From Lentzea sp. (lineage in GTDB: Bacteria > Actinomycetota > Actinomycetes > Mycobacteriales > Pseudonocardiaceae): a DNA stretch of 6,058 bases. Location of the stretch: NCBI GenBank assembly GCA_030146905.1, contig JASLAV010000438.1, positions 1 through 6,058 of the forward strand, in the 5' to 3' direction. Positions 1 to 3,134 of the stretch are shown here, in pieces; the stretch's first letter is position 1; each line of letters opens with the position of its first letter. The translations under genes were made by a program, and so were the position numbers. The notes below the pieces were generated by a model that was given only the letters and a program-made list of their open reading frames with translations, did no database searches and was not told the DNA's origin.

Positions 1-138
1 TGCACACGACCGGGCGGGCAGGGTCATAGGGCCGGGCGTAGACGGCGAGGACGTCTTCCATGCGGGCGGCGAACTCCGCGTTCGCGCGGGGCGGGATGTT
101 CCAGCACTTCCTCAGATGAGGACGCAGTTCCGTTTTTT
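1..138 (-). CDS. IS630-family transposase, continuation in -1 frame (orfB-like, partial)
   Basis: Read on the minus strand in the -1 frame from the A6 run (T133-138 on the plus strand), the sequence gives KKTELRPHLRKCWNIPP, then residues through MEDVLAVYARPYDPARPVVC. This matches the usual continuation of actinobacterial IS630 transposases, in which the next residues carry the first catalytic Asp of the DDE triad. The frame stays open to position 2, where the window ends, so the catalytic domain itself is not visible. Joining the frames needs either -1 ribosomal slippage or transcriptional slippage on A6, or else one A has been lost by mutation or miscalled. There is no plausible independent start here, so this is best treated as the second half of one transposase. 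Confidence 0.7.
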
Positions 139-582
139 CAAAACCCGGCCGATGGTCGAGTGGTCCAGGTTCGGGATGTCCTCGGTGAGCTGGACGTGTT
201 TTTCCAGCAGTCGCAACGACCATCGGGCATGCCCGGCCGGCGGCTGCGAGCACGCCAGTGCGATCAGCCGGGCTTCGACCTCACCGGTCACCGGCGACGG
301 CACCGGCGGCGAGTCACGCTTCTTGCGGCCGATCGTGGCCAGGACATCACCGCCGGTCTCGGCGAACCGCCGGGCGACCAGTCGCAGCATCTCGCCCGAG
401 ACCTCAAGCCGGTCCGCGATCACTTCCTTCGGATCAGGCTCACCCACCGAAGTATCCAGCGCAAGCAACACCCGTGCTCGCCGGATCGCCGACGCCGAGT
501 GCACGCCCGTGGTGGTCAGCCGGAGCAACTCTTCACGATCCCGCGCCGACAACGTGACCGGCCGTTTCAACTGGGAGGCCAT
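112..582 (-). CDS. IS630-family transposase, N-terminal frame (orfA-like, 156 aa)
   Basis: This is the DNA-binding N-terminal part of an IS630-family transposase. The family cuts and pastes at TA using a DDE catalytic domain that follows this part. I chose the ATG at 582 (protein begins MASQLKRPVT) because GGGAGG lies 8 nt upstream; an in-frame ATG at 702 would start inside the palindrome and has no such support. A helix-turn-helix region spans roughly residues 48-78 (EVIADRLEVSGEMLRLVARR). A basic linker (GRKKR) follows, then the second HTH-like region common in IS630 proteins (ARWSLRLLEKHV ... STIGRVLKK). The frame ends at TGA 112-114, but homology continues in the -1 frame from the A6 run at 133-138. 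Full-length relatives are about 340-370 aa, so this frame alone lacks all catalytic residues. Confidence 0.8.
   Translation of the reverse strand: MASQLKRPVTLSARDREELLRLTTTGVHSASAIRRARVLLALDTSVGEPDPKEVIADRLEVSGEMLRLVARRFAETGGDVLATIGRKKRDSPPVPSPVTGEVEARLIALACSQPPAGHARWSLRLLEKHVQLTEDIPNLDHSTIGRVLKKRNCVLI
133..138 (-). promoter_or_regulatory. A6 slippery run, candidate -1 frameshift site of the transposase
   Basis: On the minus strand the context is TTG AAA AAA CGG. Slipping one base back after the second AAA gives AAA AAA ACG GAA CTG, which restores the transposase frame. The short inverted repeat CCTC-ATCT-GAGG (plus 110-121) starts 11 nt downstream on the minus strand and could act as a weak stimulator. 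A GCGAAC/GTTCGC hairpin (plus 69-85) lies further on, probably too far away to act. Slippage of this kind is known for several IS families, but use here is inferred. Confidence 0.5.
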
Positions 583-632
583 CACCACAGCCTCCCAGCC
601 AAAGACTCCATAACTAAGCAGCGACACGCTAC

Positions 633-797
633 TAGTGGTGTGGCCCAGAACGTTGCCGGGCGAATTCGCGGTCAGACGGACGCATCGGGGTGCCGCCCCC
701 ACGCCCTCATACTGGATGTATGGGGGCGTGGGGGCGGTGCCGCGAGGTGTCCTGCTGAGCGTGAATTACCCAGCTAACGTTCTGGGTCGCGCCACTA
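633..797. mobile_element. TA-bounded long imperfect palindrome, MITE-like element
   Basis: Positions 632-714 and 798-716 form ungapped inverted arms of 83 nt around a centre at 715: 63 pairs are Watson-Crick, 9 are G.U in the plus-strand sense, and 11 are mismatched. Both ends read CTAGTGG inwards. Taking the TA at 633-634 and 796-797 as the target duplication, the element body is 635-795 (161 bp). It encodes no protein. The size, terminal inverted repeats, TA flanks and likeness to the adjacent IS630 end fit a non-autonomous derivative mobilised by an IS630 transposase. Any RNA crossing it would fold into a long hairpin, with the most stable part at 689-741. An alternative is a subterminal structure belonging to a longer IS that ends at 797. 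Confidence 0.65.
689..741 (+). repeat. GC-rich core hairpin at the palindrome centre
   Basis: Positions 689-712 pair with 718-741 without a gap: 21 Watson-Crick and 3 G.U pairs around a 5-nt loop. The key stretch is GCCGCCCCCACGCCC against GGGGGCGTGGGGGCGG. No T-tract follows on either strand, so it is not a classical intrinsic terminator. It could still block read-through from the DUF3040 gene into the transposase, since both are transcribed leftwards. Confidence 0.6.
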
Positions 798-986
798 GCT
801 CAGGATCAGCACGCCCAGCCCGAAGAGCACCACGACCGCGATCACAGCGACGAGGGCCGCGGCGAGCTGACGGCGGATCCGCAGGACGTGGGGGCCGGCG
901 CTCAGCACGCGGGCGAGATCGGGATCGTCGGCGCGGAACCGCTGCTCGATGTCGAAGAGGCGCTGCTGTTCCTGATGGTTGAGCAT
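795..986 (-). CDS. Short DUF3040-like membrane protein, probably truncated at its C-terminus (63 aa)
   Basis: The start ATG at 986 has GGGGAG 6 nt upstream; longer in-frame starts at 1064 or 1034 would run through the probable promoter. The protein opens with a charged, helical N-terminus (MLNHQEQQRLFDIEQRFRAD, then DPDLARVLS) typical of actinobacterial DUF3040 proteins. A basic stretch (RIRRQ, 36-40) and one strongly hydrophobic segment at about residues 41-62 follow. Family members I know of are usually near 90-130 aa with two membrane segments, so the second segment appears to be missing. The TAG stop (797-795) takes its TA from the insertion target and its G from the first base of the palindromic element, which suggests that insertion created the stop. 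The molecular function of DUF3040 proteins is not established. A naturally short protein is possible. Confidence 0.65.
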   Translation of the reverse strand: MLNHQEQQRLFDIEQRFRADDPDLARVLSAGPHVLRIRRQLAAALVAVIAVVVLFGLGVLILS

Positions 987-1022
987 GACGCGCTCCCCAC
1001 GTCGGTCGGCTGTCGCACGCGG

Positions 1023-1050
1023 CCTATACCCCATGTGACGGCCTTCCAAA
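1023..1050 (-). promoter_or_regulatory. Candidate housekeeping promoter for the DUF3040-like gene
   Basis: On the minus strand, TTTGGA (1045-1050) and TATAGG (1023-1028) are separated by 16 nt, resembling -35 and -10 elements. The -10 lies 36 nt upstream of the ATG at 986, leaving a leader of roughly 30 nt with the ribosome binding site in it. The match is partial, and actinobacterial promoters are hard to call by eye. Confidence 0.35.
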
Positions 1051-1118
1051 CCACGGGCGTTCACGTGTCGTCAGATCCACGCCGGGTAGCCGTTCAGGAG
1101 ACCTGGGCGACAACCTGC

Positions 1119-2964: not shown

Positions 2965-3134
2965 AGCGGTTCCGGCATCGGAGGGACCGGATCCGGGTCG
3001 GGGCCGGGAGGCCGCAGGGGATCCGGGTCCGGTCCGGGCGGGCTCAGTGGATCGGTGTCCGGGCCGGGCGGACGCGGCTGGTCCGGCCCCGGCGTGGTCG
3101 GACCTGGCCCTGGAGGCGGTACTGGCTGGCTCAT
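2961..3134 (-). CDS. Possible proline-rich microprotein with decapeptide repeats (57 aa)
   Basis: This open frame from an ATG at 3134 encodes MSQPVPPPGPGPTTPGPDQP, followed by three tandem decapeptides of the form PPGPDxDPLx (residues 22-51) and a PPMPEPL-like tail. It would be an acidic, disordered, Pro/Asp-rich peptide with no signal peptide or membrane segment. Its TAG stop overlaps the transketolase TAG in a shared CTAG. Upstream there is only a weak GGCGGG and no good ribosome binding site, and GC-rich repeat DNA opens frames easily, so this may not be translated. I do not recognise a family. It lies 115 nt downstream of trmO in the same direction and could also simply be the trmO 3' trailer. 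Confidence 0.35.
   Translation of the reverse strand: MSQPVPPPGPGPTTPGPDQPRPPGPDTDPLSPPGPDPDPLRPPGPDPDPVPPMPEPL
2982..3071 (-). repeat. Three 30-nt tandem repeats coding for PPGPDxDPLx
   Basis: The units are 2982-3011, 3012-3041 and 3042-3071 and stay in register with codons of the minus-strand frame. Shared blocks include GGATCCGGGTC-type and CCGGGCGG-type segments. Base differences among the units change few residues (P to T once, plus the variable last two positions), which is mild support for coding. Confidence 0.6.

Follow-up and report, generated by a model that had tools for sequence, protein, structure and literature searches.

A palindrome adjoining an IS630-type element

The window, that is, the whole stretch of 6,058 nucleotides from Lentzea sp. 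that was analysed, starts with an IS630-type element at positions 1-631 (about 1.2 kb in its relatives), the end of which adjoins the left CTAG of a long palindrome at 632-798. On the other side lies a DUF3040 gene that terminates in the right CTAG, using its TAG (CTA on the plus strand) as stop codon. The features are listed below with the evidence for each in brackets; the plus strand of the palindrome is the one that keeps G.U pairing.

112..582, minus strand: first reading frame, IS630-type transposase (Pfam HTH_32, 7.5e-13 for the frame 112-702)
632..798, plus strand: mobile hairpin element including the CTAG ends (pair count, 176 full copies)
632..712, plus strand: left stem arm of the inverted repeat, with the nine G.U positions (pair count)
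633..634, no strand: TA, putative left copy of the target duplication (empty and filled sites; CTAG ends of copies)
635..795, no strand: putative element in the strict sense, bounded by the two TA copies (family sites with and without an insertion, other than the window's own)
713..717, plus strand: apical loop, the first bases of which, YGG, recur in relatives (pair count, folds of relatives)
718..798, plus strand: right stem arm of the inverted repeat (pair count)
796..797, no strand: TA, putative right copy of the target duplication (empty and filled sites; CTAG ends of copies)
795..1064, minus strand: DUF3040 gene (Pfam DUF3040, 1.8e-12)

Open frames in the ORF list of the window run mechanically across the hairpin element, which is taken to be non-coding. 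Elsewhere in the window, three tandem 30-bp repeats (2989-3078) are located downstream of a transketolase-like gene, inside a short open frame of the minus strand that is rich in proline.

If positions that sum to 1430 are paired, counting from 632, the palindrome contains 63 Watson-Crick pairs, 9 G.U pairs, no A.C pair and 11 other combinations, two of which (713/717 and 714/716) fall inside the 5-nt loop. An earlier note on this DNA had stated that all nine transition differences between the arms give G.U in the plus sense and none gives A.C, which is exact, and its list of left-arm positions (639, 641, 643, 655, 668, 682, 691, 692 and 707) is confirmed. The predicted RNA fold energy of 632-798 is -143.0 kcal/mol for the plus strand versus -114.3 kcal/mol for the minus strand. 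The two-sided chance of about 1 in 256 that had been attached to the nine cases is correct as arithmetic (0.0039), but the nine are not independent events in the window copy. Eight of them are common in the family, each being present in 56 to 129 of 140 other copies, while the G.U pair 655/775 is nearly private (1 of 140). Since the figure counts shared ancestry as independent events, a sound test must be family-wide.

Against Rfam 15, the window yielded no match above the gathering threshold (best mir-299, E 0.26), and the same was true of nine relatives, one of which matched mir-3158 with an E-value of 0.00036 and 39.9 of 97 bits.

A mobile family in Lentzea and its relatives

The palindrome belongs to a family of mobile elements, about 167 bp in size, in Lentzea and its relatives, which the earlier note had not recognised. 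A degenerate terminus pattern, applied to one genome per species, identified 23 stretches, all in Lentzea or Actinokineospora, and whole-genome searches for the element gave matches in 6 of 7 and then in 23 of 60 genomes. Distinct full-length copies from Lentzea and its near relatives numbered 140 at first and 176 in the final set, for which we selected BLAST matches of at least 120 bits that reached within 12 bases of both ends and contained no N. These copies were found by likeness to the window and are related to one another; partial copies (44 at the 140-copy stage) were left out of the counts. The length was 165-168 bp in 161 of the 176 copies, and CTAG was present at both ends in 94 of the 140. 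One single-contig genome contained 16 full-length elements above 136 bits, along with weaker or shorter relatives.

Shorter forms of 108-120 bp with full ends, from which roughly the inner 50-60 bp are missing, were observed at six places in four Lentzea species (L002, L010, which is the same place as L213, L016, L017, L007 and L022), indicating that the apex is not needed for spread. A search of phages for the element gave zero matches and a search of plasmids just three weak matches in Streptomyces, while viral contigs contained no match to the terminus pattern and one to the loop pattern, which was folded and kept outside the pair counts. A description of the hairpin family was not found in the open-licence literature.

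Insertion at CTAG with duplication of TA

The family inserts at CTAG or CTAA with duplication of TA. For this analysis, the orthologous place around one insertion in L. terrae was compared in 24 genomes, L. terrae included. Two of these hold the full 167-bp element, in opposite orientations, and in 11 the site is empty, one CTAG or CTAA being all that separates the flanks. In three, the flanks are 80, 117 and 1330 bp apart owing to other insertions; four contain other spacers, and in another four the right flank was not found. The presence of CTAA in empty sites and of CTAG...CTAA in filled ones fits a duplication of TA only. For the copy in the window itself no precise empty counterpart was found, because the left side is occupied by the IS and the G019 orthologue differs there; in G019, other DNA follows the orthologue of the DUF3040 gene at the stop-codon point. 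Within the genus, one convergent stop site (L406-L429) has been filled more than once, by elements of different form and of either orientation.

Orthologous copies with both flanks matching were observed at six sites, where eight pairs share the same orientation; at another three sites the orientations are opposite. In several of the same-orientation pairs divergence is greater between the elements than between the flanks, and together with the opposite orientations this suggests separate insertions. Three pairs are possible true orthologues (L037/L055, L066/L074 and L135/L137); their combined differences comprise 14 changes between G.U and Watson-Crick pairs versus 2 between A.C and Watson-Crick pairs.

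Pairing is kept on one strand

The plus strand has been kept able to form a long hairpin and the minus strand has not. The earlier note had named A.C pairs as frequent as G.U pairs in other copies as the outcome that would speak against a plus-strand hairpin; this was not seen, with 1841 G.U against 104 A.C pairs in the 176 copies and an excess of G.U in every one of them. In an alignment of 52 representatives, 96.3% of the cells were paired. Double changes were found in 39 of 73 pairs, compared to 12.9 in shuffles, and none of 500 shuffles reached 39. Since related sequences can exceed shuffles, slid pairings were used as a second control, and these gave double changes in just 11 to 14 pairs. 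The double changes, including transversions, keep the pairs. Selection for a plus-strand hairpin, one of the two readings that the earlier note had offered, is supported by this family-wide covariation together with the G.U excess.

The order of tandem wobble pairs is also skewed. The arrangement 5'UG3'/3'GU5', which is the stable order in RNA, was observed 170 times versus 10 in 177 sequences, the 170 cases stemming from three places in the element, and 53 times versus 2 in the predicted folds of 34 other loci.

Mutation bias and selection

The other reading in the earlier note was strand-biased change from C to T. On this reading, deamination of an exposed plus strand would have given the G.U excess without selection. 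Such a process explains all nine cases in the window. To quantify the direction of the changes, we counted single changes from Watson-Crick pairs along all branches of a tree that contained the window copy and 140 others. At paired sites, C>T changes were more frequent than G>A (105 versus 24), as deamination would have it, but A>G also exceeded T>C (83 versus 31), which cytosine deamination does not predict. Mismatched or loop sites were unbiased, with 12 C>T, 8 G>A, 15 A>G and 16 T>C, and this speaks against a mutation bias of the plus strand. The difference between paired (188:55) and unpaired (27:24) sites was significant (Fisher p 8e-4), also when terminal branches only were considered (119:43 versus 20:18, p 0.018).

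We also examined how widely the variants are shared. Site variants present in 1 or 2 of 173 sequences comprised 12 G.U and 14 A.C, whereas those present in at least 3 comprised 25 G.U and 6 A.C (p 0.011), a ratio that became 23 to 3 once the target pairs 632-634 were left out (p 0.0025); the cut between rare and shared (at most 2 versus at least 3) was picked after the bins had been seen. A comparison of singletons with the rest was not significant (6:7 and 31:13, p 0.18), and an earlier, smaller set had given 12:10 and 31:7 (p 0.038). As the bias is seen among shared variants and not among rare ones, variants that break pairs on the plus strand seem to have been filtered out. That mutation itself is symmetric is supported, on few variants. 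With an excess of A>G as well as of C>T, no bias at unpaired sites or among the 26 rare variants, a small sample, and double changes that preserve pairs even through transversions, we consider strand-biased C-to-T change very unlikely.

Pure common descent is harder still to credit. A founder might have carried the G.U pairs by chance and the copies inherited them, and eight of the nine window pairs are indeed shared family states. However, variants arising from Watson-Crick pairs are biased too once they are shared, and relatives with different arms show the same bias (see below). As to when the selection may act, a filter operating while copies multiply would fit the unbiased private variants, and the 14 G.U versus 2 A.C changes in the three likely orthologous pairs would favour selection in place.

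Gene context and the nature of the folded strand

Gene context was analysed for 105 copies with at least 800 bp on each side, using a simple composition-based gene finder. Convergent genes flank 52 of the 105 copies and divergent genes 9; both neighbours are oriented against the plus strand in 22 and with it in 21, and in 1 the left neighbour could not be called. The TAG of a CTAG end serves as stop codon of the left gene in 38 copies, of the right gene in 54 and of both in 20. CTAG is a rare sequence here, with 83 distinct sites in 402 kb of these partly overlapping loci; 42 of these are intergenic, 23 coincide with one stop and 2 with a double stop, and 16 are inside a reading frame. The rarity of CTAG and its position at stops or between genes mean that the location of the copies can in large part be accounted for by the choice of target together with tolerance.

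Since the orientation of the flanking genes is balanced (21 versus 22), read-through should produce plus and minus RNA about equally; in the window, transcription of the DUF3040 gene would yield minus-sense RNA across the hairpin. A role as terminator, when judged by gene orientation, found no preference (21 versus 22) and was rejected on that basis.

The numbers bear on a function at the level of the host, in which copies located between convergent genes would serve as RNase III sites or as terminators in both directions, with selection of the fold in place. The 52 convergent contexts, the 20 copies with both stops in the CTAG ends and the three likely orthologous pairs (14 versus 2 changes) are in line with such a function. 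A terminator, however, requires just a short stem, and a terminator in place leaves unexplained why the whole stem, and one strand only, has been kept. At convergent sites the minus RNA would need the same pairs, yet only the plus pairs are retained, and private variants are unbiased. Although ERIC and NEMIS are reported to be active in RNA (PMC2229807), we regard a host function as unlikely, given also that CTAG is rare and largely at stops or intergenic anyway, which can account for the location.

The folded strand may alternatively be single-stranded DNA, if transposition or replication passes through an intermediate that must form the hairpin on one strand, as in the REP/REPIN and IS200/IS605 systems. 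A step in mobility would suit the contrast between unbiased rare and biased shared variants, and gene orientation would be irrelevant to it; furthermore, a G.T mismatch is better tolerated than A.C also in DNA. On the other hand, the TA duplication, the CTAG target and the inverted ends resemble insertion of the IS630 type, which proceeds via a double-strand mechanism, and the order of the tandem wobbles fits RNA. The 16 best full-length elements of the single-contig genome, 11 on the plus and 5 on the minus strand, show no clear replication bias and are not decisive. We give single-stranded DNA a limited chance, and the folded form is probably RNA.

Our preferred interpretation, which we hold with some confidence, is that 632-798 is a non-autonomous MITE of the IS630 type, the plus strand of which must fold as a single strand, most likely as RNA. 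The element is present in many copies, duplicates TA, is located mostly at gene ends and has kin with exchanged outer arms in other actinomycetes. Under this interpretation, the plus strand would act as a single strand, most likely RNA, and form a stem of about 80 bp with hardly any breaks. It is well supported, though on small numbers, that variants disrupting pairs of the plus strand stay rare and that those giving G.U become common. The G.U pairs would maintain the RNA stem and leave the DNA palindrome imperfect, perhaps making it less prone to breakage.

Relatives in other actinomycetes

When 298 genomes of the order were searched with a covariance model, scoring no more than nine candidates in each, 12 of them proved to contain relatives. 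The matches and their follow-up provided 31 copies from 10 further genomes, mostly with different arms, in which G.U pairs outnumbered A.C pairs by 328 to 50 and were in excess in all 31; the plus fold was the stronger one in 31 of 31, where orientation was taken from a model that itself favours G.U.

Of 394 genomes of the class, 26 contained the apical motif with at most one mismatch, at 111 places altogether and up to 25 per genome, compared to 15 places in 14 genomes for the reversed motif. At least two places were present in 10 genomes for the motif and in 1 for the reversed control. The control hits are mostly one per genome, and single hits to the motif may thus well be due to chance.

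For 49 motif loci in other actinomycetes, oriented by the apical motif only, we counted 358 G.U and 93 A.C pairs, with an excess of G.U in 43, a tie in 2 and a deficit in 4; the plus fold was stronger in 46 of the 49. The first 34 loci (13 of 28 motif loci outside Lentzea, 20 from multi-copy genomes and one plasmid), which were picked after their folds had been seen, gave 275 versus 48, with an excess in 32, one tie and one deficit. The other 15, mostly single hits with one mismatch of which several may not be hairpins of this family, gave 83 G.U and 45 A.C, with 11 in excess, three below (L358, L371 and L380) and one tie.

The subfamilies have the inner hairpin in common, and their outer arms are different yet still paired. 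An extra small side hairpin (GCCC GAA or GGA GGGC) in the 5' arm was observed at L364, L366, L382 and similar loci of other actinomycetes, where it creates a three-way junction in the predicted fold. A second type of inner core, at L370, L375 and L378, has the same apical loop and, beneath it, an internal loop in which GCAAGGCGGAGG faces CCGACAACGC.

Candidate partner transposases

The IS630-type elements of these genomes use the same CTAG as the hairpins, and the IS copies in relatives share the same end as the window IS. In one single-contig genome, all seven copies of the window's IS type adjoin a hairpin end when the flanks are read by eye, one of the seven (L216) being assigned only by its likeness to the others. 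Two of four copies in L. waywayandensis adjoin a hairpin, each seen at one end only, and the flanks of a twelfth IS copy were unreadable. The hairpins thus seem to be preferred landing sites of this IS, or the reverse.

Elements of the IS630 type of 1133 and about 1205 bp are present in the same genus. We examined 36 loci, two of them from the set of IS copies in relatives, and obtained ends for 16. The search, which drew on IS630 relatives from 28 genomes, did not find an IS that carries the ends of the window element; the best agreed at 8 of 12 positions. Close ends were observed between the 1133-bp IS (L222, L223, L442, L448, L449 and L450) and the hairpins of genome G071 (L270, L279 and L286); counted by eye, 15 of 16 positions are identical between these hairpin ends and the 1133-bp Lentzea IS. 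The two are a candidate IS/MITE pair across genera.

A broader scheme, which we put forward as speculative and rather doubtful, is a superfamily of actinomycete mobile hairpins. Their spread would need a folded single strand, whether RNA or single-stranded DNA, with a conserved, loop-oriented inner hairpin, exchanged arms and possibly different CTAG-directed IS630 transposases.

Comparison with known systems

Whether the hairpins of bacterial MITEs function as RNA or are just DNA palindromes is usually debated case by case. The copy variants of this family help to separate mutation from selection, with a bias that recurs with different arms, and so provide a direct handle on the role of the folded strand, in a repeat family that is present in many copies in several large actinomycete genomes and is without a match in Rfam.

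With the IS630 family and its MITEs the hairpin element has in common the duplication of TA within CTAG and the short inverted ends; to our knowledge, a strand-specific fold is not a recognised trait of IS630 MITEs. As in the structured RNAs of Rfam 15, there is a covarying stem with conserved loop bases, here without a match above gathering.

The REP/REPIN sequences associated with RAYT (TnpA-REP) are palindromes as well; they are dispersed, are in many cases flanked by convergent genes and serve as targets of other IS (PMC1525189), whereas the hairpin element is longer and duplicates TA. The insertion of IS into REP palindromes is a published parallel to the IS copies that adjoin the hairpins (PMC1525189).

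The ERIC, NEMIS/Correia and YPAL elements of other hosts, likened here by description, are likewise 100-200 bp in size, with inverted ends and a long stem-loop if transcribed, and several have TA at their termini as here; for ERIC, orientation matters for the effect on RNA (PMC2229807). In contrast to these elements, the pairing of one strand is here shown by the variants among copies, the outer arms have been swapped as units that pair, and the insertion target is CTAG, in many cases at the stop codons of convergent genes.
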